Source: Candidatus Jettenia sp. AMX2
GTDB lineage: Bacteria; Planctomycetota; Brocadiia; Brocadiales; Brocadiaceae
Length of the DNA stretch: 64,000 nucleotides
Assembly (NCBI GenBank): GCA_030583665.1
Contig: CP129469.1
Coordinates: 682,001-746,000 of the forward strand
Direction: 5' to 3'
A model generated the notes under the pieces. That model saw only the letters and a list, made by a program, of their open reading frames with translations. It searched no databases and was not told the DNA's origin. Shown in pieces: positions 14,255-37,648 of the stretch; positions within the stretch are counted from its first letter, which is position 1, and each line of letters opens with the position of its first letter. Position numbers and translations under genes: made by a program.

Positions 14255-14629
14255 AAAAAATTTTTTTTATTGTTTTACAAACAGACCACTAACAGTAGTT
14301 TCGTCTGGTACTATTTTTTATCATTTACAATTACAGACAGCGAGTTCCGAATTTAATCTACTTCCGGAATTTCTATCCTGATACATTAAAAACCCGTTCC
14401 CATGCTGATAAAGATAAACGCAATAAACATAATTATAGTACTCAAATATCAAACCGAACAAATCTTCAATCGACGGGAAAACTATCCCACCGACCATTAG
14501 AGATTGCTTCGCTTACGCTCGCAATGACATTTTTTCAGGATTTATTATGTCCTATATATCTTTATACAAACCAAAGAAACAAGGTTAACCATATCCTGTT
14601 CGGCCTCATCTGTTAGATACTATATATTA
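14255..14629. repeat. Gene-free spacer with an AT palindrome and an inverted copy of a dispersed repeat
   Basis: Directly after the octahaem gene an A-tract/T-tract palindrome (14250-14271) may act as a bidirectional terminator. Positions 14430-14530 hold a minus-oriented copy of the repeat family found at 21785-21920: the stretch around GAGCGTAAGCGAAGCAATCT and the segment around CGATTGAAGAT are both shared with it. No coding sequence is evident. Confidence 0.6.
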
Positions 14630-22008: not shown

Positions 22009-22473
22009 ATGAACGGTTCGATTCAGTTAGTTGTGTTTAAGCTGGATGCCATGAAATTTGGAGTCCTCCTTTCTTTTGTTGAAAGGGTTGTACCCGTGAC
22101 CGAAGTCACCGGTTTGCCTGGTGCACCGGAAATCGTTCTTGGCATTATTAATATGAAAGGGAAAATTATTCCTGTGGTCAATATTCGCAAACGGTTTCGT
22201 TTACCCGTAAGAGAAATCGAGCTGAGTGACAGATTTATCATTTCCCGGACATCGAAGAGATGCCTTGCAATTATAGCGGATGAAGTTGACGGTGTTGCTG
22301 AGTATCCGGAACAAAAAATAATTACGGCAGCAAATATCCTTCCAAACCTTGAATATATTGAAGGGGTAATAAAAACAGAGGATGGTATGGTTCTTATCCA
22401 TGACCTTGAGAAATTTCTGTCGCTTGATGAGGTATCTGCATTGGATAAAGCAATGATTCCGGTTTCAGAATAA
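22009..22473 (+). CDS. cheW: CheW-like scaffold protein
   Basis: A 154-residue single CheW domain (VFKLDAMKFGVLLSFVERVV, GLPGAPEIVLGIINMKGKI, VVNIRKRF). CheW couples chemoreceptors to the CheA kinase in the cytoplasmic array. It opens the chemosensory cluster and is followed after 26 nt by cheR. In a Wsp-type layout this position corresponds to WspB. No strong ribosome binding site is visible before ATG 22009. Confidence 0.93.
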   Translation: MNGSIQLVVFKLDAMKFGVLLSFVERVVPVTEVTGLPGAPEIVLGIINMKGKIIPVVNIRKRFRLPVREIELSDRFIISRTSKRCLAIIADEVDGVAEYPEQKIITAANILPNLEYIEGVIKTEDGMVLIHDLEKFLSLDEVSALDKAMIPVSE

Positions 22474-22499
22474 TAAAAGGAGTTTGACTATAAGATAAC

Positions 22500-24044
22500 A
22501 TGCGGGATGGTGTTCAGGAGATGCTTTTATCGCGGCTGAGTGACATGATTGCTGTTCATGTTGGTTTACATTTTCCGAGAGAACGGTGGCACGATCTTAA
22601 ACGGGGAATTAGTTCAGCTGCAAAGGATTTTGGATTTGATAATGTTGAATCGTGTATTCAGTGGCTGGTGTCATCTTCCCTCACGAGGAATCAGATAGAG
22701 ATATTGGCATCCAACCTTACCATCGGAGAGACATATTTTTTCCGTGATAAACGGATCTTTGAAATTCTTGAAGAGCATATTATTCCGGAATTGATTTCTT
22801 TGCGTAGAACTTCCGAACGCCGTTTAAGGATATGGAGTGCCGGTTGTGCAACGGGTGAAGAACCATATTCCATTGCCATCCTGCTTAAAAAAATGATACC
22901 GGACTTGCGGGATTGGAATATTACTCTCCTTGCTACAGATATTAATCCCCGCTTTCTTCAGAAAGCTTCAAAAGGGGCATATACTGATTGGTCCTTTCGC
23001 GGTACGCCCCGATGGGTTCGGGAAGGGTATTTTGGGAAGATAAAAACGAACCTTTATCAGATCTCTTCTGATGTAAAAGAGATGGTGACATTTTCCTTTC
23101 TAAACCTTGTGCGCGACTCCTACCCCTCTCTTGTAAACAATACGAATGCCGTGGATATTATCTTTTGCCGTAATGTCCTTATGTATTTTGCAACGGGCAC
23201 CATGCATAAGGTTATTCAAAAACTGTATCGTTCTCTGGTGGACGGCGGTTGGCTTATCGTCAGCCCGTGCGAGACTTCAAATACTCTCGCTTCGCAGTTT
23301 ACTGCTGTTAATTTCCCTGGCACAATCTTGTACCGTAAGGTCCTTAATCCTTCAGGAATACCAGGAAAAATATTCCGGGAAAATGTGTTAACCGGTGAGG
23401 AGGAGCAGGAAACAGGAATTTCGTTTCAAATACCTTTTGAGCCTGTGGATGACATAACTGATGGAATGACCGTACAGCGGTTTACTGTTTGCATCGATGA
23501 AGAAAATAAAAAACCTGAGGTGCCAGAACCAAAGGACCCTTATATGGAGATTCTAGATATATACCGGAAGGGTCTTTATCGGGAAGCTGGAGAAAAACTG
23601 ATAACATTTCTTTCTGACAGGAAAGTGATCGGAAATAATCCGGCTTTTACAAGAGAGCCGGTCGATCTTTTGATACATGTTTATGCCAATCAGGGAAAGC
23701 TTCATGAGGCGCTGGAATGGTGTGAAAAGGCCATTACAATGGACAAAACAAATCCCTGCTTTCATTATCTTCGTGCAAATATTCTTCAGGAACTAGGACA
23801 CGTTGAGGAATCAGTAATATCCTTAAAGCGGGTATTGTATCTGAATCCGGATTTTGTATTAGCCCATTTTGCGTTGGGGATGCTTAACAGGAAAAAGGGA
23901 AAAATCAGGGAGGCGAACAGGCATTTTAAGAACGCGCTTTCCATTCTTGATTCGTTCAGGGATGATGATGTTTTGCCGGAATCAGAAGGTATGACTGCAA
24001 AAAGGCTGAGGGAAATCATTGTGTCTACGATGGAAGGAATCTGA
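22500..24044 (+). CDS. cheR: CheR methyltransferase with C-terminal TPR domain (WspC-like)
   Basis: SAM-dependent methyltransferase that methylates receptor glutamates to adapt the array; 514 residues. The N-terminal CheR helical domain is followed by the SAM-binding core with IWSAGCATGEEPYSIA (about residues 118-133) and DIIFCRNVLMYF (about 219-230). After a linker, two to three TPR repeats occupy about 395-490 (ALEWCEKAITMDKTNP, HYLRANILQELGHVEES, AHFALGMLNRKKGK). CheR with TPRs is typical of alternative chemosensory systems such as Wsp (WspC). AAAGGAG lies about 17 nt upstream, which is long. Confidence 0.94.
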   Translation: MRDGVQEMLLSRLSDMIAVHVGLHFPRERWHDLKRGISSAAKDFGFDNVESCIQWLVSSSLTRNQIEILASNLTIGETYFFRDKRIFEILEEHIIPELISLRRTSERRLRIWSAGCATGEEPYSIAILLKKMIPDLRDWNITLLATDINPRFLQKASKGAYTDWSFRGTPRWVREGYFGKIKTNLYQISSDVKEMVTFSFLNLVRDSYPSLVNNTNAVDIIFCRNVLMYFATGTMHKVIQKLYRSLVDGGWLIVSPCETSNTLASQFTAVNFPGTILYRKVLNPSGIPGKIFRENVLTGEEEQETGISFQIPFEPVDDITDGMTVQRFTVCIDEENKKPEVPEPKDPYMEILDIYRKGLYREAGEKLITFLSDRKVIGNNPAFTREPVDLLIHVYANQGKLHEALEWCEKAITMDKTNPCFHYLRANILQELGHVEESVISLKRVLYLNPDFVLAHFALGMLNRKKGKIREANRHFKNALSILDSFRDDDVLPESEGMTAKRLREIIVSTMEGI

Positions 24045-24146
24045 CCTGAATGGGCCGGAAGAGAAAAATCGGGCAAGGTTAAGCCCAGCCTGCCAATACC
24101 AGGTCTGAATAACACATAAATTACTGCTTTAATAAGGAGAAATACA

Positions 24147-24242
24147 ATGCATTTCCAATGGAAAGAGGATTTGGCAACCGGTAATGCGGCAATTGACACC
24201 CAGCATAAAGAAATATTTAAAAGAATAAACGGTAAGATATGA
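24147..24242 (+). pseudogene. Truncated bacteriohaemerythrin, 31 codons, overlapping the next cheW
   Basis: A 31-codon reading frame encodes the exact N-terminal signature of bacteriohaemerythrin: FQWKEDLATGN, then AIDTQHKEIFKRIN, including the first iron-ligand His (DTQH). Full proteins have about 130 residues, so all other iron ligands are missing. It has a strong ribosome binding site (AAGGAG, 8 nt before ATG), and its TGA overlaps the ATG of the following cheW. It is either a remnant or a leader peptide kept to initiate the downstream gene. Confidence 0.75.
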
Positions 24243-24787
24243 TGAAACATCAGGAAAAGGAAAGAATTCTTAAAGAGAGGGCAAGGGAACTTGCGCGGGA
24301 ACCTGAGAAGAAGGATACGTCCGGGGAATACGTAAGGGTAGTGGAATTCCTTCTTGCTTATGAAAGATATGCACTTGAAGCATCGTATATTTGTGAGGTG
24401 TATCCTTTGAAGGAACTTACGCCACTGCCATGTACTCCGCCCTTCGTTCTGGGCATTCTGAATGTCCGGGGACGTATTTTTTCTGTTATTGATATCAGGA
24501 AGTTTTTTGAACTGCCGGAAAAAGGTATTACCAATCTTAATAAGGTTATTATTCTGTCAACTGATAAACCCGTCCCTGAAAGGATTGATGGTATGGAGTT
24601 TGGCATCCTTGCCGATGCCGTCTCCGGTGTGAAATCTGTTCCTCTTCATGAAATTCAGACTTCACTTTTTACGCTTACCGGCATCCGGGAAGATTATCTG
24701 AAAGGTGTGACAAAGGACAGAACTGTGATTTTGGATGCAATGAAGATTTTATCAGATAAAAGAATCGTTATTCATGAACAGGTATGA
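24239..24787 (+). CDS. CheW-like scaffold protein, second copy (WspD-like)
   Basis: A 182-residue CheW domain with a charged N-terminal tail (about residues 1-35, KEKERILKERARELAREPEK). Core segments are VVEFLLAYERYALEASYICE, PLPCTPPFVLGILNVRGRIF and FGILADAVSGV. Two CheW proteins flanking a CheR-TPR gene is the arrangement wspB-wspC-wspD. The start overlaps the stop of the truncated haemerythrin frame, which probably supplies ribosomes by coupling, as no strong ribosome binding site precedes this ATG. Confidence 0.92.
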   Translation: MMKHQEKERILKERARELAREPEKKDTSGEYVRVVEFLLAYERYALEASYICEVYPLKELTPLPCTPPFVLGILNVRGRIFSVIDIRKFFELPEKGITNLNKVIILSTDKPVPERIDGMEFGILADAVSGVKSVPLHEIQTSLFTLTGIREDYLKGVTKDRTVILDAMKILSDKRIVIHEQV

Positions 24788-24832
24788 ATGTGAACTTGTA
24801 ACTTCGGCCCGTCTCTAACCCAACTTACGCTT

Positions 24833-26380
24833 ATGACATTGAAAATGAATATAACTACAAAGCTTATTATTTTAATCATTGCGGCAATCGTTGTTTCTTC
24901 CGGCATTCTGACATATTTTAATATAGAAAAACAAAAGGAGCAAATAGCGGCAGAAATAAAAAAACAGGCACGGATGGCGGCAGACCAACTCATAAGTATG
25001 AGAAACGTGCTTGCAGCCAGGCAGGGTGGAATAAATACGGACTCTTACAGGAATATCGAACTTAAGGGTCTGATACCTGCGATTGTTGGACGTGAGGTTG
25101 CCGAGGATTTTAGCAGGACTACTATTTACAGCATGAAACAAACAAGCCTGAAATACAGGAATCCTGTGAATAAGCCTGACGAATGGGAGATAAAACAATT
25201 GAAGAGATTTGAAAAGAACCATGATTTTAAAGAATTTTCGGAAATAACGGCACTGGAAGACGGCGCCGAGGTTTTCCGCATGATGGTTCCTCTAAAGATC
25301 GAGAAGGACTGTTTGCCGTGCCACGGTGATCCTGCAACGAGTCCAACCGGCGATGGCAAAGATATTACAGGAAGAGAGATGGAAAACTACAGGCTGGGTG
25401 ACATCCGCGGGGGAATCAGTGTCGTTGCTCCGATGACCGCAATCCATGGAGCTATTGCCTCCAGCAGAAATTTTAACATAGCTGGAAATGGTATCTATAT
25501 GGTTTTTGTAGGCACACTAGTCTTTTTTATTGCGAGAGGGATTGTAAATCCTATCAGGGAAGGAGTCAATGTTCTTAATTCTTCAGCCATTGAAATCTTT
25601 TCAGTAACCAGGCAGGTTGCTGTCAGTACTGCGGAAACGGCCGCTGCGGTGGCAGAGGCTACTACAACAGCAGAAGAAGTGAAACAAACAGCACAGGTTT
25701 CTGTACAAAAAGCCGCTTACGTTTCTGAAAGCGCACAGAAAACTGTCCAGATCTCACAGGGAGGCAGGAGATCCGTAGAGGATGCAATCGGCGGGATGAA
25801 CCGGATTGGCCGGCAGATGGAATCGATTGCAGAAAGTATTGTGAGGCTGGATGAACAAAATCAAACTATCAGAGAAATTGTTGCTACAGTGGACGATCTT
25901 GCAGAACAAACAAATCTTCTGTCAGTGAATGCTGCTATTGAAGCAGCGAAAGCAGGTGATGCCGGAAAGGGATTTGCTGTTGTTGCCCAGGAAATCCGGA
26001 ACCTTGCAGAACAATCGAAACAGGCAACAGCACGGGTACGGGATATTTTAAATAAAATCCAGAAGGCAACCAGCACGGCAGTAATAGCAACAGAAGAAGG
26101 CAGTAAGGCAGTCGCATCGGGAATAAAACAATCTTCGAATGCCGGAGAAACAATTCGCATGCTGGCCGAGAGCATAGCGGAGGCAGCTCAGGCTGCATCC
26201 CAGATTGTTGCATCCTGTCAACAACAGACGATAGGAATGGATCAGGTAGCTTCTGCCATGGAAAATATTAAACAAGCTAGCACACAAAACGCAGAAGGTA
26301 CAAAACGGGTGGAGGTTACTGCGGAAAACCTGCGCGAGTTAGGATATAAATTAAAACAGATGATAGACCGGAATGTATGA
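24833..26380 (+). CDS. Chemoreceptor with c-type haem sensor domain (DUF3365/Tll0287-like)
   Basis: A 515-residue methyl-accepting protein. TM1 is at about residues 9-28 and TM2 at about 215-236. The extracytoplasmic domain between them is DUF3365/Tll0287-like and holds a c-haem motif, CLPCH (C160, C163, H164), followed by GDPATSP. The cytoplasmic part is a receptor signalling hairpin without a recognisable HAMP domain; its tip reads [21 protein letters not shown] haem in this domain type suits sensing of redox state, NO or another gaseous ligand, which would make sense in an anammox cell. The ligand itself is not shown. It lies between cheW and a second receptor and shares its signalling domain with it. 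Confidence 0.92.
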
Positions 26381-26491
26381 TCAATTACGGTTTTAGAGTA
26401 TGCATTTGGTAAACATAATTAATACAACCACAGATTACTTGGATTTACTGATAAAAATCTGTGAATATTTTGTTTAAAATATGGGAAAAAA

Positions 26492-28456
26492 ATGATGATA
26501 AACTTTATTAATAGCAGTTTAACCAGAAAATTAATTGCGCTTGTTCTTGGCGTTTCACTGATATCTGTTGCAATTGTAGGATATCTGAGTTATGCGTCAG
26601 GCAAGGCTACCATAAAACGCCAATTTTACGATAGTTTGACATCGATTGTAAAATCAAGAGAGGCTGCAGTCGCTTTTTATCTGAGATCAAAAACGGGAAG
26701 GGTACGGGATTTCAGTTCGGATGGTTTTATCCGCAAAACCCTCGAAAAGCTAAACCAGGAAACATCTGCTGTCAAACCACTTTTAGAGGAATTAAACAGA
26801 CATCTTTTGGAGAACAAAAAATCCCTCGATCCGGAGATATATGAAATCTATGTACTGGATTTTCATGGGAAGGTGGTTGCATCTTCAGAACAAGAAACGA
26901 TAGGTACGAACAGGTCGGGGGAGGCGTATTTTACGAAAGGCAAAAAGGGTATTTATGTGACTGATACCTATCGTTCCGTAACGAAAAACAAGGACCTGAT
27001 TACCGTTTCTGCACCTATATGGTCAGGGGAGGCAAAGGAGGTAATAGGGGTTATCGTGTGCTGTTATAATCTGGAAGGATTGAATAGCATTACCACCAAC
27101 AGGGAAGGAATGGGCGAGAGCGGAGAGGTTTACGTTGTAAACAGGGATCGGTATATAATTACAGAACCGCGATTTATCAAAGAGGCAATCCGGAAACAAA
27201 AGGTTGACACCATGCCGGTGAGCTTGTTTCAGGAGCAAAAGACGGATATGAGGGGAATTTATCCGGATTACCGAGGGGTACCTATTGTAGGTGCCTCGGC
27301 AGGGGGGATAATTGATCAGGAATTTGGTTTGGGATGGACGGTACTGGCTGAGATAGATGTTGGCGAGGCACTTGCTCCGTTAAAGGTGCTGGCGTGGAGG
27401 GTGGTATGGATCGGGCTTTTTGTGGGTTTTGTGGTGATGATAATTACCTACATTGCGTCAAAAAAAATAGTAAGACCCATAAAGGAAATATCCGAACAGG
27501 CTATGAAGATTGGCGAAGGTGATCTGACAGTTTACGTACCGCACGATACCAGAAGGGATGAAATAGGTTTATTATCAAGAACGTTAGGGAATGTGGTAAA
27601 AGGCCTCAGAAAAATTACCGAGGGGATTGTCGAAGGTGTAAATGTTCTTAGCTCTTCAGCGAGTGAAATTTTGGCAGTAACGGCTGAGGTCGTTTCCAGT
27701 ACCTCGGAAATGGCTGCATCGGTAAGTGAGACAACGGCAACAGTTGAAGAGGTGAAACAAACAACGCAGCTTTCCGTTCAGAAGGCAAGATATGTCTCCG
27801 AGAGTGCCCAGAAAACTGTCCAGATATCAGAAAACGGCAGGAGGGCTGTGGAAGAGTCAATCGGCGGGATGAACCGTATCAGGGAACGGATGCACAGTAT
27901 TATTGAAAGTATTCAAAGACTCAATGAGCAGAGGGAGATGATTGGTGAAATTATTGAAACAGTAGATGATTTAGCGGAACAAACGAATCTTTTATCAGTA
28001 AATGCGGCAATTGAGGCGGCAAAAGCAGGGGATGAGGGAAAGGGGTTTGCCGTAGTGGCACAGGAGATCCGATATCTTGCAGAACAGTCGAAACAGGCGA
28101 CAGCCCAGGTGCGAACCATCTTAAATTCCATTCAGAAGGCAACCAGCACGGCAGTGATGGTAACTGAACAGGGGAGCAGGGTAGTAGATGAGGGGGTAAA
28201 GCAGTCATCCGAGGCAGGAGAGGCAATCAGAACGCTTGGTGAAAGCATAGCGGAGTCAGCACAGGCGGCATCACAAATAATGGTGTCCAATCAGCAGCAG
28301 ATGATGGGTATGGATCAGGTTGCTACGGCAATGGAAAACATTAAATTAGCAAGTACACAAAACGTGACTGGCACAAAACAGGCAGAGACGGCCATACAAG
28401 ATATAAATGAACTGGGGCATAAGTTGAAGCAAATGGTGGAACGGTATAAGGTGTGA
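26492..28456 (+). CDS. Chemoreceptor with Cache-type sensor, HAMP and signalling domain
   Basis: A 654-residue methyl-accepting protein. TM1 at about residues 13-33, a large external double-Cache-like domain (about 35-300; [20 protein letters not shown] and [12 protein letters not shown] are typical), TM2 at about 306-328, HAMP (about 329-382, ending near [10 protein letters not shown]) and the signalling hairpin (tip [20 protein letters not shown]). Cache domains usually bind small organic ligands. The signalling domain is very like that of the preceding receptor, which points to tandem duplication with exchange of the sensor. It would feed the same CheA. Confidence 0.94.
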
Positions 28457-29176
28457 TTTGGGTGGGGTTCAAGGATTTGCAACCTGTGTTTTATGCTATC
28501 CCTTCGGGATTAAGCTTGATGTAAAGGAATTTCAAACTGTGTTATACCATGTCAGACAACCCCCCGAATCCCCCTTTGTTAAGGTGAAGTACAGGCGCAC
28601 CGTAGTGCGTCTCTATGAATTCCCTCTTTGTTAAGTGTATAAATTACGTTGAATTGATACATTACAATATGTTGTATAGAAAATTTGGTTTAAAGCTCAT
28701 TTGACCCAGTCTGATTGCCCACCAAATAAGACCGTATCTGTCATTGTGAGGAGCGAAGCGACGAAGCAATCTTTGTCTTTGAGATTGCCTCGGGGTTCTA
28801 CACTTTGTTACGAACCCCTCGCAATGACGTGTGGGGGTAATGCAAGCACATGATCATTGCGAGCGTAAGCGAAGCAATCTCATGATCATGGGGGAGGGAT
28901 TGCTTCGCAAAAGACCCTCGCAATGTCCGACGAGGGAGTCCTGGGGAGATGTTCGGTTTCATGCCTGGAATACTATAACTTTATAGTATAGGGTTTCATT
29001 TTATTTATGTGTTTTTGGTTTGTGCTTAACATGAACAAACAACGCTGAAAGGGTAACATGATTATAACCAAAGAATAACCATAGACCAATAACCCCGAAG
29101 GGGTGGTATGATTATAGCTAAGAAATTAAAATGATGGTAATTCCGAAAGGATAATATTAAAACGTAAAGAATAATC
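28457..29176. repeat. 720-bp repeat cluster inside the chemosensory locus
   Basis: No gene. From the left: degraded CCCCTTTGTTAAG-type repeats (28560-28640); a unit starting GCCCACCAAATAAGACCGT (28717) and running on into GAGGAGCGAAGCGACGAAGC (28750 onward); a second unit with GAGCGTAAGCGAAGCAATCT (about 28860-28926); and short palindromes of the CCCCGAAGGGGTG type (29090-29105) next to ATGATTATAG. Related copies lie at 36225-36450, 46250-46420 and 58540-58930. The spacer separates the receptors from cheA, which may therefore have its own promoter. Confidence 0.75.
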
Positions 29177-31591
29177 ATGGATAAAGAAGACAGTGAATTT
29201 CTGAAAAGGATTCTTGCCACATTCAAAATTGAGGTGAAAGAGCACCTTGACGCCATGTTTTCCGGACTACTTGAATTGGAAAAATTCCCTCCTCTGGAAA
29301 GGCAGGTGGAAATTATTGAAGATATCTTTCGGGAATCGCACAGTTTAAAAGGTGCTGCCCGTGCAGTCAATGATATAGAGGTGGAGAATATCTGCCAGTT
29401 ACTGGAAAGTATCTTTGCAGCGTTGAAGCGTAAGAGACTTGTTTTATTTCCAGGTTTGTTTGGGGTGTTGTACCGGGCAATCGATGGTCTTGCAGGTTTA
29501 ACATATCAGGAGAAACAGGATGTGTTTGATAAAGGATGGGTTACCGTTATTCAGCATGATTTAAGAGATATCCTTGAAGGAGGCATACCACGGCAGGAAG
29601 AATTCATAAAAAAGGAAGACATCACAGCAGATTATTCTGGTTTACAACAGTATATGACAGAGGAAGGAACCGCACCGGCAGAGATTATTCAAATATCTGA
29701 AAAGGAATGCATAGATGAGTCAAAACAAGTGGATTCCGGTATCAGGAGATCGGAATCCAGACAATCGTTACCGGGGAAACGATCCCTCTTCATAGAAAGT
29801 ACGGTAAGAATAGCTACAGCAAAATTACATTCGGTTATGCTTCAGGCAGAAGAAATAGTTTCTGCAAAACTGGTGGCGGTTCAGCAGGTTAAGGACCTCC
29901 GTGATATAAGAGGCATGCTTGATCAATGGAAAAACGAGTTTTCAAGATTACGATCCGGGATAAAGCAGGTACGAAACCAGATAATGCAGTGTGAAGTCAG
30001 TAATCGAAATCCTGAGTTCCAGGATATTTCTTTGCAGATCACACGTTTTCAGGAGTTTTTTGACTGGAATACTGCGTATATGAAATCGCTGGAGGAGAGA
30101 TTACTGTCGCTTTTGAAGTTATCGGAACAGGAACAACGGTCACTTGGGAGCATGGTTGATAACCTTCTTACCGATACCAAGAAACTGTTCCTACTGCCTT
30201 TCTCATCTCTCCTGGAGGTTTTTCCAAAGGTCGTCCGTGAACTCTCGAAAGATCAGCATAAGCATGCAGAATTAGTGATTAAGGGAGAAAATATAGAGAT
30301 CGACCGGCGGATACTTGAAGAAATGAAAGATCCGTTTATGCACATAGTCAGGAATTGCATCGACCATGGTATTGAAACGCCAGAGGAGCGGGAAAAAAGA
30401 GGGAAGCCGGTGCAGGGAAAGATTCAGATAGTTATTTCTCAGAAAGATAGTGGCAAGGTAGAGGCGATTGTTTCTGATGACGGGAAAGGAATCGATGCAG
30501 CAAAGGTGAGATCTGCGGCACTGAAGCTTGGCATTATCTCACAAGAGGAAGCAAAAACATTCAATGAAAATGAAATATTGTCTTTTATTTTCCAGTCCGG
30601 GATTTCTACGAGTCCTATTATTACCGATATCTCGGGAAGGGGGCTTGGTCTTGCCATCGTACAGGAAAAAGTTGAAAGATTGGGTGGTATCATCTCGATG
30701 GAAACGGTACAAGGCAAAGGAACTCAGTTTAAAATTGTTCTGCCGATGACGATTGCAACATTCCTGGGTATACTGGTGAGTACCGGTGAACACCTCTTTG
30801 TCATTCCTACCATAAATGTTGAACAGGTGGTAAGGATAAAAAGGGACGGAATCAAAACGGTTGAGAACAGGGAAACCATTCAGTTACATGGGAAATCAAT
30901 CTCTCTTGTGCGTCTCGATGACACCCTGGAGCTTCCCCGCAAAGGAAAGAAGAGTGAAGATTCAGGATTTATCACCGCAGTGATCCTGGGTACGGCTGAA
31001 AGAAGGATTGCTTTTGTTGTTGATCAGGTACTGGGAGAGCAGGAAGTGTTGATGAAGGGATTAGGGAAGCAGCTTTCCCGAGTCCGGAATATTGCCGGCA
31101 GTAACGTTCTCGGAACAGGTAAGGTTGTTCCGGTTCTTAATATCTCTGACCTCATGAAATCTGCGGTGAAAACCGGCATTTCTGGCATTGCGAAACCTGT
31201 CGCTTTGGTTGAAGGGAATACGGAAAAAAAGAAATCGGTTCTGGTTGTGGAAGATTCGATAACCTCGAGAATGCTGCTGAAAAATATTTTGGAAACAGCC
31301 GGTTACCACGTTATTGTCACTGTGGATGGTGTAGATGCATTTACTACCTTAAGAACGGAAGATGTTGATTTGGTGGTATCAGATGTTGATATGCCAAGGA
31401 TGAACGGCTTCGATCTTACCGCAAAAATCAGAGGGGAGGTAAAATTTTCGGAATTGCCCGTTGTGCTCGTAACCGCACTGGATTCCAGGGAAGACAGAGA
31501 GAGAGGCATCGATGTCGGCGCAAATGCCTATATTGTGAAAAGCAGTTTTGATCAGAGTAATTTGCTGGAAGTTATCAGAAAGCTTATCTAG
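29177..31591 (+). CDS. Hybrid CheA histidine kinase with C-terminal receiver (WspE-like)
   Basis: The central kinase of the pathway, 804 residues. P1/Hpt domain: H55 in RESHSLKGAA is the phosphorylated residue. A long helical linker without a clear P2 domain follows (about 130-330). The kinase core has the N box (HIVRNCIDHGIETPEERE), DDGKGID and GRGLGLAIV, then a CheW-like P5 domain (about 535-670), and a C-terminal receiver (VLVVEDSITSR; phosphoacceptor Asp in VVSDVDMPRMNG). CheA-REC hybrids are typical of Wsp, Frz and Che7-like systems, where the own receiver tunes phosphate flow. No strong ribosome binding site precedes the ATG. Confidence 0.96.
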   Translation: MDKEDSEFLKRILATFKIEVKEHLDAMFSGLLELEKFPPLERQVEIIEDIFRESHSLKGAARAVNDIEVENICQLLESIFAALKRKRLVLFPGLFGVLYRAIDGLAGLTYQEKQDVFDKGWVTVIQHDLRDILEGGIPRQEEFIKKEDITADYSGLQQYMTEEGTAPAEIIQISEKECIDESKQVDSGIRRSESRQSLPGKRSLFIESTVRIATAKLHSVMLQAEEIVSAKLVAVQQVKDLRDIRGMLDQWKNEFSRLRSGIKQVRNQIMQCEVSNRNPEFQDISLQITRFQEFFDWNTAYMKSLEERLLSLLKLSEQEQRSLGSMVDNLLTDTKKLFLLPFSSLLEVFPKVVRELSKDQHKHAELVIKGENIEIDRRILEEMKDPFMHIVRNCIDHGIETPEEREKRGKPVQGKIQIVISQKDSGKVEAIVSDDGKGIDAAKVRSAALKLGIISQEEAKTFNENEILSFIFQSGISTSPIITDISGRGLGLAIVQEKVERLGGIISMETVQGKGTQFKIVLPMTIATFLGILVSTGEHLFVIPTINVEQVVRIKRDGIKTVENRETIQLHGKSISLVRLDDTLELPRKGKKSEDSGFITAVILGTAERRIAFVVDQVLGEQEVLMKGLGKQLSRVRNIAGSNVLGTGKVVPVLNISDLMKSAVKTGISGIAKPVALVEGNTEKKKSVLVVEDSITSRMLLKNILETAGYHVIVTVDGVDAFTTLRTEDVDLVVSDVDMPRMNGFDLTAKIRGEVKFSELPVVLVTALDSREDRERGIDVGANAYIVKSSFDQSNLLEVIRKLI

Positions 31592-31602
31592 CGGAGAAAC
31601 GG

Positions 31603-32679
31603 ATGATAAAAGTCCTTGTTGTGGAAGATTCACCTGCTATGTGTGAATTCATGGTACATATTCTTGGTTCAGATTCTGGCATTCAGGTAATCGGGGCTGT
31701 AAGTAATGGTGAAGAGGCTGTTGAGGTAATTCACAGGATTAAGCCGGATGTTATTACGATGGACATCAATATGCCGAAGATGAACGGATTTGAGGCGACC
31801 CGCAGGATTATGGAGACGTTTCCTGTACCTATTGTTATCGTAAGCGCAACCTGGGATACGAAAGAAATATCAACGACCTTTTTGGCTCTTGAAGCAGGTG
31901 CAGTTGCTGTTTTGGAAAAACCGAGGGGTATCGGGCATCCGGAGTATGAGAGCATGGCAAAAAATTTAATACAAACGGTTAAACTAATGTCTGAGGTAAA
32001 GGTAGTGCGACGGTGGGCTGGTGGTGTTCACAGGAAGAAAGCCGTGACAAGAGGACCGGTTTCCGGAAAGATTACAGAAGAGGGGAGGCGCATTGTGGAA
32101 GAGGAGATTAGGCTTGTTGCTATGGGGGCATCTACGGGAGGCCCCCTTGTTCTTAAATCAATACTTTCCGGACTTCCAAAAGATTTTTCAATTCCTGTGG
32201 TAATTGTTCAGCATATGGCGGCGGGTTTTATTCAGGGGTTCGCAGACTGGCTGGGTCGGAAATCTGTTTTACCTGTCGGTATTGCAATAGACGGCAGTTA
32301 TTTGTTGCCAGGGCGTATTTATATAGCACCGGACAGTTTTCAGATGAGGATAGAAAAAGACGGAAAGGTTGCGCTTACAAAGGATGCACCGGAAAACGGA
32401 CTTCGCCCTTCCGTATCGTATCTTTTTCGTTCTGTTGCTGAGTCTTTCGGGAAACACGCTGTTGGCATACTGCTTACTGGTATGGGTAAAGACGGCGCCG
32501 AGGAATTGAAACTGATGAAAGAAAAAGGCGCAATTACTATTGCACAGGATAAGGAAAGTTCTGTGATCCACGGAATGCCGGGAGAAGCAATTAAGCTTAA
32601 TGCAGCAACCTATGTTTCCACACCGGAAAAAATCATTGAAATACTTATCAATTTACTAAATGATTGGAGGGTACCATGA
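31603..32679 (+). CDS. cheB: CheB receptor methylesterase (WspF-like)
   Basis: A 358-residue protein with an N-terminal receiver (VVEDSPAMCEF; phosphoacceptor in ITMDINMPKMNG) and a C-terminal methylesterase domain. The catalytic triad is visible in GASTGGP (Ser), VQHMAAGF (His) and GMGKDGAEE (Asp). It removes methyl groups from the receptors, opposing CheR. GGAG lies about 7 nt before ATG. The stop overlaps the start of the next gene in ATGA. In Wsp systems loss of this enzyme locks the pathway on. Confidence 0.97.
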   Translation: MIKVLVVEDSPAMCEFMVHILGSDSGIQVIGAVSNGEEAVEVIHRIKPDVITMDINMPKMNGFEATRRIMETFPVPIVIVSATWDTKEISTTFLALEAGAVAVLEKPRGIGHPEYESMAKNLIQTVKLMSEVKVVRRWAGGVHRKKAVTRGPVSGKITEEGRRIVEEEIRLVAMGASTGGPLVLKSILSGLPKDFSIPVVIVQHMAAGFIQGFADWLGRKSVLPVGIAIDGSYLLPGRIYIAPDSFQMRIEKDGKVALTKDAPENGLRPSVSYLFRSVAESFGKHAVGILLTGMGKDGAEELKLMKEKGAITIAQDKESSVIHGMPGEAIKLNAATYVSTPEKIIEILINLLNDWRVP

Positions 32680-33569
32680 GCGGTCATATTTTGATTGTTG
32701 AAGATAGCCCGAACCAGGCCTTAAAAACTCAATTTTTACTTGAAGAGGCGGGATATCTTACAGAAACAGCTGAAAATGGTCGGATTGGACTCGAAAAGAT
32801 GCTGGCAGACCCGCCTGATCTTGTTGTTGCAGACATCCTTATGCCGGTGATGGACGGTTATGAAATGACCCGTCATCTGAGATCCGATTACCGTACTGCA
32901 AATATCCCGGTAATTATGCTTACATCAAAGGATCATCCGGTAGATATTATTCGAGGTCTGGAAGCGGGTGCAGACCATTTTATTCCCAAACCTCCGGACG
33001 GTTCTTTTGTGCACCGTGTCAGGTCAATACTCAGTTATCTGGAAGGGACAGAACCAGGATGTTTACCAGGCCAGCAGCTACAATGCTTCGGTGGGGAAAT
33101 AGTCATTACTGAAAGCAGGGAACAAATCCTTCAGTTATTGTTACAATCCACATCCCGTATTGTGAACTGCCAGGCTATGGCCATCCTCCTTTATAATGCT
33201 AATGGGGGGCTAACACTTTTTGTCCTTTCTTTTCAATCCCTGAATGCCGTTGTAACAGAACAGATAGGGGAGAGGATGTCCGGCCTTCTTTCCTTACTTC
33301 GTGCTGAATCAACCTCTGCAACGGAACAGAAAATGTGTATTGTAATTGAACCAAAGAGGCCTTCATCCGAAGCTCAGAGTGATTTGTTTAACTCCTTTCT
33401 TGAAGTACCTCTTATTATAGGCAATCAGGTAGTGGGTCTTATGGGAGTATGTAGCGTTAAAAAAGAGGCTTTTGATCTCAGACAGGTAAAGTTTTTATTT
33501 GATATGGGTCAAAAGGCGGCTGCAGCATTAAGCCGTATAAGAATGAAAGAACACCGCATGGAGAAATGA
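32676..33569 (+). CDS. Response regulator with receiver and GAF-like domain
   Basis: A 297-residue protein: an N-terminal receiver (ILIVEDSPNQA; phosphoacceptor Asp in VVADILMPVMDG; Lys in FIPKPPD) and a C-terminal GAF-like domain (about 145-290, IVNCQAMAILLYN through VGLMGVCSVKK). It has no DNA-binding or enzymatic output. All receiver residues are intact, so it is the likely phosphate acceptor of the kinase. It may relay to the following gene products by protein contact. I chose ATG 32676 because GGAGG lies 6 nt upstream and it overlaps the cheB stop (ATGA). Confidence 0.9.
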   Translation: MSGHILIVEDSPNQALKTQFLLEEAGYLTETAENGRIGLEKMLADPPDLVVADILMPVMDGYEMTRHLRSDYRTANIPVIMLTSKDHPVDIIRGLEAGADHFIPKPPDGSFVHRVRSILSYLEGTEPGCLPGQQLQCFGGEIVITESREQILQLLLQSTSRIVNCQAMAILLYNANGGLTLFVLSFQSLNAVVTEQIGERMSGLLSLLRAESTSATEQKMCIVIEPKRPSSEAQSDLFNSFLEVPLIIGNQVVGLMGVCSVKKEAFDLRQVKFLFDMGQKAAAALSRIRMKEHRMEK

Positions 33570-33763
33570 AGGATCGCATAAATTATTTCAAAAATGCAGG
33601 CCGTTTTATATCTTAAAATCAGGAATTTGGAGTTTTGTATTCATAGGTCCTGAGTAGAATGAGTGATTTGATTGGTTGTATTCGTTGTGATTTATATCAG
33701 ACAAAAGAAGGTAATCGGGTGGTCATATAAACCGGGATCATGATACGAAGAGAAAGGTGTAAT

Positions 33764-34159
33764 ATGTCAGAAAAGGGAAAAAAACACGATACCCCGGCAG
33801 AACAGGTTATTGAGATTTATACCGAGCTTTTAAACGAAATTTGGAGACGCGTTGCTTATCTCATTGGCGGCATTACCCTGCAGGTGCTTATGTCAAATGC
33901 TGTTCGCAGGACATCTCTTGCTTTTCCGTTTTTAACACAGGTAAGCGTAACGACATGTGGTGTATCCCTTGAAAAATTGAGGGAAGTTTGCTGTAGCCTG
34001 CCAAAACATGAAACAAGAAAAGCGCTCCAAAATCTGGTTGCTGAACTTTTCAGTCTGCTGATAAGCATGAGCGGGGATGTCATTGTCCGGGAGTTGGCAC
34101 CTCTTGTAAAAAATACTGAAGAAAAGCTGGAGTCTGCTGATGAAGGGAGTGCGATATGA
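33764..34159 (+). CDS. Unrecognised helical protein within the chemosensory cluster
   Basis: A 131-residue protein I cannot assign. After a charged N-terminus (SEKGKKHDTP) it is mainly helical (VIEIYTELLNEIWRRVAYLI, ALQNLVAELFSLLISMSGDV), with three cysteines in the middle (TTCGVS, VCCSLP). No signal peptide is seen. The start chosen is ATG 33764, preceded by AAAGG; an ATG 24 nt earlier has no good site. The stop overlaps the ATG of the cyclase gene (ATGA), so it is probably made together with it and may bind it or the GAF-containing response regulator. That link is inference from position. Confidence 0.75.
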   Translation: MSEKGKKHDTPAEQVIEIYTELLNEIWRRVAYLIGGITLQVLMSNAVRRTSLAFPFLTQVSVTTCGVSLEKLREVCCSLPKHETRKALQNLVAELFSLLISMSGDVIVRELAPLVKNTEEKLESADEGSAI

Positions 34160-36036
34160 ATTTTCCTGGTATTATTGTCATAAGTAATGATCCTCCTATT
34201 GACACCTTACTGGTTGACCTTCTTAGAAAGGAAGGATACAGGGTTTTAGATGTTCGGGACGGACAAACCGCTTTAAAAATTCTTAGTCAATCCCCGGTGG
34301 CTGTTGCTGTGATATCAGAAAAGCTGTGCGATATGGACGGCATTGTTTTTGTCAGAAAGTTAGCTTCCCAGTTTCCCGATGTGAGAGTTATTATAGTGAA
34401 TTCTTATCCCGGGATCGAGCAGACCAGAGAGGCTTTGCTTGCCGGAGTGTATGACTATATAACGTGGCCGATTACCGATTCTGTATCAGTGGTATCGCTG
34501 GTACAACGCGCTATGAATGAATTTATTATGATACAGCGCAACCGTGATCTCCTTCAGAAAGTACAGTCCGAAGTAACAAATGATGATGTTGCTTCTTTAC
34601 CAATCATTACGGATCGTTGGACAAAAGAACTCCTGGCTCTGAGAGCTATAAGTATGGAACTGAGTGCAATTATGGAAGTGCCGCGCATTCTTCGTGTTAT
34701 CAGCAATAATATATCCCTGCTTTTTGAATACACACTCATGGCCGTCCTTGTTGAAATAGAGAACAAATGGAACCTGTTCCTTTTTTCTGGAAAGAGTTTT
34801 ACCCAGGCTTTCATTGATGCTTGTATTGAAAACCTACTGACACTTCACAGTTTGTTTGTTGGACGGCCCTGCACACGGCGGGATATTCAGGTTTGTCAGA
34901 TAGATGATATCGCTTCATCGCCCGGTACAGGAACTTTTCTCCGAGCAGATTCCGAACTCCGTTCTCATATAACATTTCCTCTTGTAGCTGGCGGCGAAAC
35001 CCTTGGAAGTATTTCCCTGTGCAGTCATGCGAAGAAGGCATTTACTGCCGTGGATGTACAGGTATTCTCACTCATTTCTTATCAGCTTGCGTCTACTCTG
35101 TGCAATGCCAGGCTTTTTCAATATACACAGAAAATGACTGTTACAGATCATTTAACAAGCCTTTATAACCGGAGATATTTCGATGAAATTCTTGACCACG
35201 AATATTCACGTGCGCATAGGTACAAACGTCCTTTGTCACTTGCCCTGATTGATATTGACAACTTTAAACAAGTTAATGACACATTCGGCCACCCGTCCGG
35301 TGATTTTGTATTGCAGCAATTGGCAAATCTTCTCCGTAAATCAACAAGGGAAGTGGATATTGTTGTCAGGCACGGAGGAGAAGAGTTTGCCCTTTTGCTT
35401 CCTGACACAAGCCTTGAAAAGGCTGCAATTCTTATTGAACGGCTTCGTCTGGAAATACAGAACTATTCATTTGTTACCGCCAGGCACAAAATCCTGCTGA
35501 CTGTCAGTGCAGGGGTTGCAACTTTGGGAGAAAATGGTACAGATACAAAAGAAGAACTAATCAGTCATGCTGATGAATCCTTGCTTGTTGCAAAAAAATG
35601 CGGACGAAACCGCGTTCGTCTCTACTTTCCGTCAAAAGACAGAACAGATGTGAAGAATCGTAAGATTGAAGAAAACCGTCGCTTTCTTCAGCGGGTACCT
35701 TTGCATCTGCCTGTCCGCTATATTCAAGTACATGAAGATAACATTGAGGCAAAAACGGGCATTTCATATAATATAAGCATGGAAGGAATATCTTTTGAGG
35801 CTAAAGAAAAATTACCTCAGGGTAGCTACGTCATCCTTGATCTTACCCTGCCCTTGAAAGATAGTGAAGAACGGGTTCGTATACTTGGGAATGTAGTCTG
35901 GTCCAATGTTCAAAAAGGAGGAGAAAATGTGACTGTTGGCGCCAGGATTCTATCCTTGTCTTCAGCGTCACGGCGCCGGATTGAAAAATTAGTTGTAGAT
36001 GGCAGCGCGGATAGCGCGAAGAAATCAGATACATAA
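34156..36036 (+). CDS. Diguanylate cyclase: degenerate receiver, GAF, GGDEF and PilZ domains
   Basis: The output enzyme, 626 residues, making cyclic di-GMP. The N-terminal receiver-like domain (about 1-120) lacks the phosphoacceptor Asp (the site reads ISEKLCDMDG) and has Trp in place of the conserved Lys (YITWPI), so it is a pseudo-receiver. A GAF domain follows (about 170-320). The GGDEF domain (about 330-490) has the active signature GGEEF and a product-inhibition site RxxD (REVD) exactly five residues before it. A C-terminal PilZ domain (about 505-615) has RFLQR and NISMEG, the c-di-GMP-binding residues. Synthesis and sensing of the messenger are thus joined in one chain. It takes the place of WspR in a Wsp-like cluster. 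Confidence 0.95.
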   Translation: MNFPGIIVISNDPPIDTLLVDLLRKEGYRVLDVRDGQTALKILSQSPVAVAVISEKLCDMDGIVFVRKLASQFPDVRVIIVNSYPGIEQTREALLAGVYDYITWPITDSVSVVSLVQRAMNEFIMIQRNRDLLQKVQSEVTNDDVASLPIITDRWTKELLALRAISMELSAIMEVPRILRVISNNISLLFEYTLMAVLVEIENKWNLFLFSGKSFTQAFIDACIENLLTLHSLFVGRPCTRRDIQVCQIDDIASSPGTGTFLRADSELRSHITFPLVAGGETLGSISLCSHAKKAFTAVDVQVFSLISYQLASTLCNARLFQYTQKMTVTDHLTSLYNRRYFDEILDHEYSRAHRYKRPLSLALIDIDNFKQVNDTFGHPSGDFVLQQLANLLRKSTREVDIVVRHGGEEFALLLPDTSLEKAAILIERLRLEIQNYSFVTARHKILLTVSAGVATLGENGTDTKEELISHADESLLVAKKCGRNRVRLYFPSKDRTDVKNRKIEENRRFLQRVPLHLPVRYIQVHEDNIEAKTGISYNISMEGISFEAKEKLPQGSYVILDLTLPLKDSEERVRILGNVVWSNVQKGGENVTVGARILSLSSASRRRIEKLVVDGSADSAKKSDT

Positions 36037-36466: not shown

Positions 36467-37648
36467 CTAAAAAAGTGAATAACGTTTTTCTAAAATCCCT
36501 GTCCATAGTACAGGTATTTGATCAAGATGTTTTTTTATGATGCCCATACATATCTCTTGTATTATTTCTCCGGAAAGGTCTGAATGGGCTTTTACGTGGA
36601 TAATTTGTGGTTCAGTAACAGGCGCTCCTATTTGACTTACCATATAGCATTCTCCCTGAAAGATACGGGAGTCCCTGGCAATTTCGGCCGATATTTCATT
36701 AGCGACCAGATTATATAACTTTCCTGTATGAGTGACAGGGTTTTTTCCTGCTGTGGCCTCAAGAGTCATTGGCCGGTAAGGTGTTATTAATCCGTTCGCC
36801 CTGTTTCCTCTGCCTACCTGACCATCATCACCGCATTCAGCGCTTGTTCCCGTCACCGTCAGGTAAGCGATTTTATTTTCATAATTATCTGCGGCATTTA
36901 GCGTTGTTGTAACTTTGAGTGATGTCAGTCTTTTTATAAAGAACCGGATATGTTCAAGTATTTTGCTTTTTATAGTAAAATATTCATCTATTGATGAGAC
37001 GAATCTTGAGACCATAGCCACAGCTATGGTAAGGTTTATATGGTCATGTATCCTTATGCCCATGATTTTGATATCTTCGCCAATCATAGGATAGGATTCT
37101 TTTATCTCTTTGGAATTTAAGTATTGTTCAATCTGGTAAACAAGGGATTCCGTTTCTGTCAGAGGTGAAAAACCAACCCCGATTGAAGTGTCATTTGCGA
37201 GCGGAACCTTGCTTTCAAAGGTTGCACGCAGGTCCACGCTGCCAGTTCTGATTTTTGTTTCAACAAGCATATTTTTTTCAGGTTCAAGGAATCTTAGCCT
37301 TTCATTGAAGAACCGGTAGATTGTATTCCTGGTAATTTCTTCAAGGGGAATTCTTTCATTTCCAACATATTCCACTGCCCGGCCCACAACGATCATCTGA
37401 AGAGGGGTTATTACCTTGCCGCCTCCGAAAGAAACGTCAGAATGCCCACCGACAAGCAGGCATTTATCAATATTGTGGTGCAGTATCCTGCCAAATTTTT
37501 TCAGGTAATATCTGGATAGAGCAATAGTAAGTTCCTCTGCCACATGGTCACAGAGCGTATCCGGGTGTCCCAGGCCTTTCCGTTCAACAATCTCTATGTC
37601 GGATTTTATAAAGAGAGGTTCTTTTGCTCTTTCAATGATGATATCCAT
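36467..37648 (-). CDS. S-adenosylmethionine synthetase, archaeal type
   Basis: Methionine adenosyltransferase of the archaeal family (AdoMet_Synthase), 393 residues, which makes SAM from methionine and ATP. Recognised from DIEIVERKGLGHPDTLCDHV near the N-terminus, LLVGGHSDVSFGGG, GTSAECGDDGQVGRGNRANG and the C-terminal VSQIGAPVTEP. This is not the bacterial MetK family; it occurs in archaea and a scattering of bacteria and suggests horizontal transfer. Whether the genome also has a bacterial metK cannot be seen. It starts 32 nt after the upstream universal stress gene on the same strand; no clear ribosome binding site. Confidence 0.94.
   Translation of the reverse strand: MDIIIERAKEPLFIKSDIEIVERKGLGHPDTLCDHVAEELTIALSRYYLKKFGRILHHNIDKCLLVGGHSDVSFGGGKVITPLQMIVVGRAVEYVGNERIPLEEITRNTIYRFFNERLRFLEPEKNMLVETKIRTGSVDLRATFESKVPLANDTSIGVGFSPLTETESLVYQIEQYLNSKEIKESYPMIGEDIKIMGIRIHDHINLTIAVAMVSRFVSSIDEYFTIKSKILEHIRFFIKRLTSLKVTTTLNAADNYENKIAYLTVTGTSAECGDDGQVGRGNRANGLITPYRPMTLEATAGKNPVTHTGKLYNLVANEISAEIARDSRIFQGECYMVSQIGAPVTEPQIIHVKAHSDLSGEIIQEICMGIIKKHLDQIPVLWTGILEKRYSLF

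Follow-up and report, generated by a model that had tools for sequence, protein, structure and literature searches.

Most of what is known about how chemosensory systems control c-di-GMP concerns direct phosphorylation of the WspR type, in which the kinase WspE switches on the diguanylate cyclase WspR, and WspR needs its receiver residues. Reports of the Wsp system itself are confined to beta- and gammaproteobacteria (PMC8552884). ACF pathways have as their hallmarks a CheR protein with TPRs and multidomain regulators (PMC3447774). Here we describe a ten-gene chemosensory cluster of Candidatus Jettenia sp. AMX2 that shares its part list with Wsp and, judged by CheA phylogeny and gene content, belongs to the ACF type. 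What is new is a split output, together with an unnamed family of small proteins.

The window is a stretch of 64,000 nucleotides (contig CP129469.1, positions 682,001 to 746,000, forward strand) from a complete 3.46-Mb genome. Ten plus-strand genes lie at 22009-36036, from CheW to a GGDEF protein, and all of the open reading frames and domains named for them in a preliminary description of this DNA were found (Table 1). The last protein, described there simply by its GGDEF domain, does contain one, but within a fuller REC-GAF-GGDEF-PilZ architecture with a degenerate receiver. By their coordinates, cheB and the REC-GAF gene overlap by 16 nt, and there is a 4-nt overlap between the cyclase gene and the gene for a 139-residue protein (UNK). 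No gene was found in the 720 bp between receptor 2 and CheA, where dispersed repeats are present. A dispersed repeat of the GCGAAGCAATC type has copies immediately ahead of the cluster (21791), within it (28854) and immediately beyond it (36432), and a further copy lies at 14505. The cluster flanks resemble sucC/sucD and SAM synthetase/Usp genes; the S-adenosylmethionine synthetase (36467-37648, minus strand) is of archaeal type by appearance.

The genome contains two hydrazine synthase alpha genes, and its earlier assignment to a probable anammox bacterium therefore holds. In total, it encodes three che clusters, four chemoreceptors and eleven GGDEF domains. As previously remarked for the surroundings of the locus, no flagellar genes occur within the ten-gene cluster; a flagellar che cluster and FliG are located elsewhere, at 2.61-2.64 Mb (FliG at 2.61 Mb). 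A second ACF-like cluster at 3.04 Mb (L055, 3034000-3053000) encodes CheW, MCP, CheW, CheA-REC, REC-GAF-GGDEF and CheR-TPR, and the receiver of its REC-GAF-GGDEF regulator is intact. No cheB was found at this second locus; in Brocadiaceae relatives, cheB lies between the CheA and GGDEF genes.

Table 1. Features of the chemosensory cluster, in positions of the window.
Feature	Position	Strand	Evidence
CheW coupling protein 1	22009..22473	+	PF01584 E=1.6e-26
CheR methyltransferase with C-terminal TPRs (CheR-TPR)	22500..24044	+	PF01739 E=3e-49 and TPR families
CheW coupling protein 2	24239..24787	+	PF01584 E=7e-27
Receptor 1, membrane-anchored, Tll0287-like / sCache_heme sensor and ACF-type signaling domain	24833..26380	+	PF11845 E=2e-33
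CLPCH heme c attachment motif, receptor 1 residues 160-164	25310..25324	+	aligns with CxxCH of Tll0287, PDB 5b82
Receptor 2, dCache-HAMP-MCP	26492..28456	+	PF02743, PF00672, PF00015
Intergenic gap with dispersed repeat, receptor 2 / CheA	28457..29176		
CheA hybrid kinase, Hpt-HATPase-CheW-REC	29177..31591	+	domain matches; receiver residues intact in REC alignment
CheB methylesterase, receiver intact	31603..32679	+	PF01339 E=2e-59; REC alignment
REC-GAF regulator, receiver intact, proposed phospho-output	32664..33569	+	domain matches, REC alignment
139-residue small helical protein (UNK), unnamed family, proposed adaptor	33740..34159	+	homologues; model pLDDT 85
Diguanylate cyclase, pseudo-receiver-GAF-GGDEF-PilZ	34156..36036	+	domain matches, sequence
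Degenerate receiver of cyclase	34156..34479	+	alignment with 17 other receivers
GGDEF domain, GGEEF active site and RxxD I-site	35140..35613	+	PF00990 E=3e-46
PilZ domain, cyclase C-terminus	35677..35994	+	PF07238 E=8.5e-9

Phylogenetic trees of CheA were built on the HATPase-CheW part. References were the CheA of E. coli, the flagellar CheA, ChpA and WspE of Pseudomonas tumuqii (the WspE recognized by its neighbors CheB and REC-GGDEF), and CheAs of Geobacter and Synergistota; the remaining CheAs of the Jettenia genome, together with matches from named genomes, were also taken in. In the careful tree, the cluster CheA fell within a clade of 57 rows with support of 100/99, a clade whose members were recruited by similarity to the query, in a tree with two WspE-type rows only and a bootstrap that had not fully settled. 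Outside this clade are WspE, ChpA, every flagellar CheA and the kinases of the actinobacterial loci described below. Within it is another CheA of P. tumuqii that is not of the Wsp type, and its members include CheAs from ACF clusters with CheR-TPR of Geobacter, Desulfomonile and P. tumuqii. Forcing the cluster CheA together with WspE was rejected (p-AU 0.025), less strongly than forcing it together with flagellar CheAs (p-AU 0.0007). The preliminary description had proposed a Wsp-like pathway and looked to a grouping with WspE as support, which the trees did not give; the flagellar placement that it had held to count against its reading was likewise not obtained. With a CheA outside the flagellar classes, a CheR-TPR, multidomain response regulators and no linked flagellar genes, the cluster is by these markers an ACF-type, non-flagellar chemosensory pathway and not a Wsp orthologue. 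The Wsp label thus stands as an analogy for the part list, all of which is present, but not as membership. NCBIfam equivalog models gave no separation of chemosensory classes. The nearest kin of the cluster CheA are scattered over many phyla and the other Brocadiales type-A CheAs form no single clade with it, which suggests that the history of this lineage includes horizontal exchange. One CheA from a record titled Klebsiella pneumoniae (L122) grouped with environmental Pseudomonadota, and the record is probably a mislabeled MAG.

The cyclase receiver is degenerate. When aligned with 17 other receivers, it has Ser/Asn in place of Asp12/13 of CheY, Ser for Asp57, Asn for Thr87 and Trp for Lys109; in the same alignment, CheA, CheB and REC-GAF each have a receiver in which the acidic residues, phospho-acceptor Asp and Lys are intact. 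Loss of all phosphorylation residues makes it very unlikely that CheA phosphate switches the cyclase directly in the manner of WspR. REC-GAF is, by its residues, the sole output-type receiver of the cluster predicted to take phosphate. Degenerate receivers can still signal without phosphate. The GGDEF domain, whose solved relatives include PleD and WspR, retains both an RHGGEEF active site and a REVD I-site; the protein thus has the GG(D/E)EF and RxxD motifs of a predicted active diguanylate cyclase.

A trio of REC-GAF, UNK and receiver-less GAF-GGDEF proteins is encoded directly after cheB in four genomes of another phylum. One of these, an uncultured actinobacterial MAG (L145) found by a genome scan with CheA, has the order CheW, CheR-TPR, CheW, MCP, CheA-REC, CheB, REC-GAF, UNK homologue and HAMP-PAS-GAF-GGDEF. 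Its REC-GAF, in the same position in the cluster, is 38% identical to that of Jettenia over 290 residues, and its UNK homologue 25% identical over 106 residues (pairwise E 2e-15). Searching a two-row UNK alignment against 397 genomes of this phylum recovered four more genomes with UNK, three of which have the trio after cheB (L167, L168, L169); their cyclases are PAS-GAF-GGDEF proteins with no receiver, two of them cut by contig ends. Overall, UNK is 23-29% identical to the actinobacterial copies. The CheAs of these loci form a separate clade of their own, and the trio has therefore been kept or reassembled with different cores. In related clusters, most output regulators carry a linker of about 40 residues (around IT..R.QILDLLISTYE.A) after the receiver; it was scored by profile, and a strict regular expression missed many rows. 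Within this CheA clade, the linker is conserved in most output regulators (L057-L064, L082-L161) whatever effector domain comes next. By profile, its core is weak in REC-GAF (E=0.0043), as it is in the actinobacterial relatives, and it is absent from the cyclase; its occurrence in REC-GAF is a hint of an output role.

UNK has no sequence match in Pfam, NCBIfam or the PDB, and plasmid and viral scans gave none either. Its AlphaFold2 model (pLDDT 85) is nearly all helical, and no fold in the PDB matched it better than E=2. A six-row profile used on 400 Chloroflexota genomes detected the family in 39, and some genomes carry several copies (seven in G990). In 14 neighborhoods, two of them from one genome, UNK lies mostly beside genes for GAF-histidine kinases or KaiC-like ATPases. 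The homologues at L207, L209, L211, L214 and L170 adjoin KaiC-like ATPases and sensor kinases. At one Chloroflexota locus (L208:8672-9391), UNK is fused to an intact receiver and directly adjoins a GAF-PAS-HD-GYP gene. Two weak matches (L076, L077; E about 0.007) came from other Planctomycetota; they overlap a homoserine-kinase-like gene, and we dismissed them as chance. The family thus recurs with receivers and GAF effectors, and the fusion and the neighborhoods suggest a general component that couples GAF-bearing effectors to receivers or to other inputs. It is from neighborhood and this one fusion that we infer an adaptor role for UNK.

Full-length CheA orthologues (E<1e-200) were present in 8 of the 61 other Brocadiales genomes. 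The genus has a single other genome here (G033, 99% complete); it gave no CheA match at E<=1e-30 and seems to lack all three chemosensory systems. The orthologous clusters retain the core of CheW, CheR-TPR, CheW, MCP, CheA-REC and CheB, with small rearrangements. The genes after cheB vary: they encode REC-REC-PAS-HK-REC, or REC-HD-GYP with REC-PAS-HK, or two REC-GGDEF proteins, and the trio is absent from all eight loci. Conservation of gene order across Brocadiales, to which the preliminary description had also looked for support, was therefore not borne out; the cluster is patchy in this order and its outputs are swapped. Similar output swapping was seen over 80 named loci, in agreement with the published description of CheR-TPR ACF pathways (PMC3447774).

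Receptor 1, the only one of the genome's four receptors found to have a heme sensor, carries the Tll0287 domain with CxxCH by which sCache_heme sensors are recognized. Its residues 1-235 are 66% identical, ungapped, to a receptor from a che cluster of flagellar type in Brocadiaceae (L222); their identity to the L221 receptor is 59%. The remainder is 71% identical, ungapped, to receptor 2 and about 27% identical to flagellar-cluster receptors, which lack stretches present in both arms of the receptor 1 signaling domain. By these comparisons, receptor 1 is a chimera of a flagellar-type heme sensor and an ACF signaling domain. Since NO is an intermediate of anammox, an NO or redox input is plausible, and the heme sensor probably responds to NO or redox state. 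Domains of the sCache_heme type fused to signaling parts have properties of NO sensors, as described in a 2026 preprint (PMC12889525); the protein shown to bind NO carried a HAMP domain, unlike receptor 1, in which no HAMP match was found.

We consider it moderately likely that this ACF-class pathway sets c-di-GMP by a split output running from CheA to phosphorylated REC-GAF, to UNK and to the cyclase. Receptors 1 and 2, both CheWs and CheA would form an array tuned by CheR-TPR methylation and CheB, and the periplasmic c-type heme of receptor 1 would sense NO or redox state and control CheA. The kinase would phosphorylate REC-GAF, CheB and its own receiver, a probable phosphate sink, but not the cyclase. 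Phosphorylated REC-GAF, through or together with UNK, would then alter the activity of the GAF-bearing cyclase, and c-di-GMP could feed back via the PilZ domain and the I-site. We infer from sequence the direction of phosphate flow, the adaptor role and its sign, the NO signal, and any biofilm or other physiological outcome. A broader proposal, which we put forward tentatively as a real possibility, is that UNK founds an unnamed adaptor family that couples effectors with GAF domains (cyclases, HD-GYP hydrolases, histidine kinases) to receivers or to KaiC-like ATPases. Such a family would give chemosensory arrays indirect control of c-di-GMP; in this case the input would come from a heme c NO/redox sensor taken from a flagellar receptor in an organism living on NO chemistry.

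REC-GAF might instead act on another target. In that case, the cyclase could be independent, controlled by a ligand of its GAF domain and merely co-encoded, with REC-GAF carrying the CheA output elsewhere. The cyclase does have GAF and PilZ domains of its own, and outputs are often swapped in such clusters. We nevertheless think this rather unlikely, given that the order of the trio is kept in another phylum despite very different CheAs and cyclase N-termini, that the UNK and cyclase genes overlap by 4 nt, and that the REC-UNK fusion adjoins a GAF-HD-GYP gene. A partner-switching arrangement, in which UNK is an inhibitor or sequestering partner taken off the cyclase by phosphorylated REC-GAF, would give a sign opposite to that of an adaptor-activator. 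There is precedent for a small partner protein that sets the activity of a cyclase (SiaC-SiaD; PMC8457831), and the predicted UNK fold is small and all-helical. None of the data fix the sign of the effect, however, and the REC-UNK fusion suits a joined effector surface better than a released inhibitor, leaving this arrangement distinctly improbable.

True Wsp-type wiring would require CheA to pass phosphate to the receiver within the cyclase, just as WspE acts on WspR. The part list is the same, the GGDEF domain matches the WspR and PleD structures, and clusters of two other Brocadiaceae (L062, L063) end in REC-GGDEF proteins with intact receivers and a strong linker; yet the receiver here has other residues in place of the phospho-acceptor Asp, the acidic pair, Thr and Lys, and no receiver occurs in the cyclases of the homologous trio, so that we give this wiring very little credence. 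Least credible is an accessory flagellar chemotaxis pathway. Although the genome has flagellar genes with a flagellar che cluster, and the receptor 1 sensor resembles the sensors of flagellar-cluster receptors, the flagellar CheA grouping was rejected, the cluster has no stand-alone CheY, and its receptors have the longer ACF-type signaling domain.

Under the split-output model, one protein takes the phosphate and another makes c-di-GMP. In two phyla UNK lies between them, and in a third it recurs next to GAF effectors. REC-GAF, UNK and the cyclase make up a defined three-protein system for in vitro reconstitution. The cluster very probably controls c-di-GMP, and the earlier view of a non-flagellar pathway tied to this messenger with a modified output stage is supported. 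Its suggested control of biofilm or aggregation may also apply; the reported evidence tying c-di-GMP to granule EPS is purely correlative (PMC11224092). For anammox biology, the locus is a specific, testable candidate for connecting the sensing of NO or redox state with c-di-GMP and perhaps with granule or biofilm growth.

Compared with known systems, the cluster resembles Wsp (WspA-F and WspR of Pseudomonas) in its two CheWs, CheR-TPR, CheA-REC, CheB, MCP, GGDEF output and non-flagellar nature. It differs in that its CheA is not a close relative of WspE, its cyclase receiver is dead, REC-GAF and UNK are additional, and the receptors lie between CheW2 and CheA, whereas wspA-wspF has the receptor first (PMC8552884). 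The receptor 1 sensor is like the sCache_heme sensors Tll0287, GSU0582 and GSU0935 in having a Tll0287-like domain with CxxCH, but is joined without HAMP to an ACF-type signaling domain. UNK is proposed to govern a cyclase as a small partner protein, as SiaC does SiaD (PMC8457831); SiaC, however, acts in a threonine-phosphorylation rather than a chemosensory pathway (PMC7647112), and UNK matched no SiaC model. The type-A clusters of other Brocadiales (L057-L064) share an orthologous core, with CheAs 44-52% identical, but have other output proteins after cheB and no trio. Finally, ACF clusters with CheR-TPR (PMC3447774) have the same order of CheW, CheR/TPR, CheW, MCP, CheA/REC and CheB and likewise place multidomain regulators after cheB, whereas here the output is split into a phosphorylatable REC-GAF, UNK and a cyclase without a working receiver.
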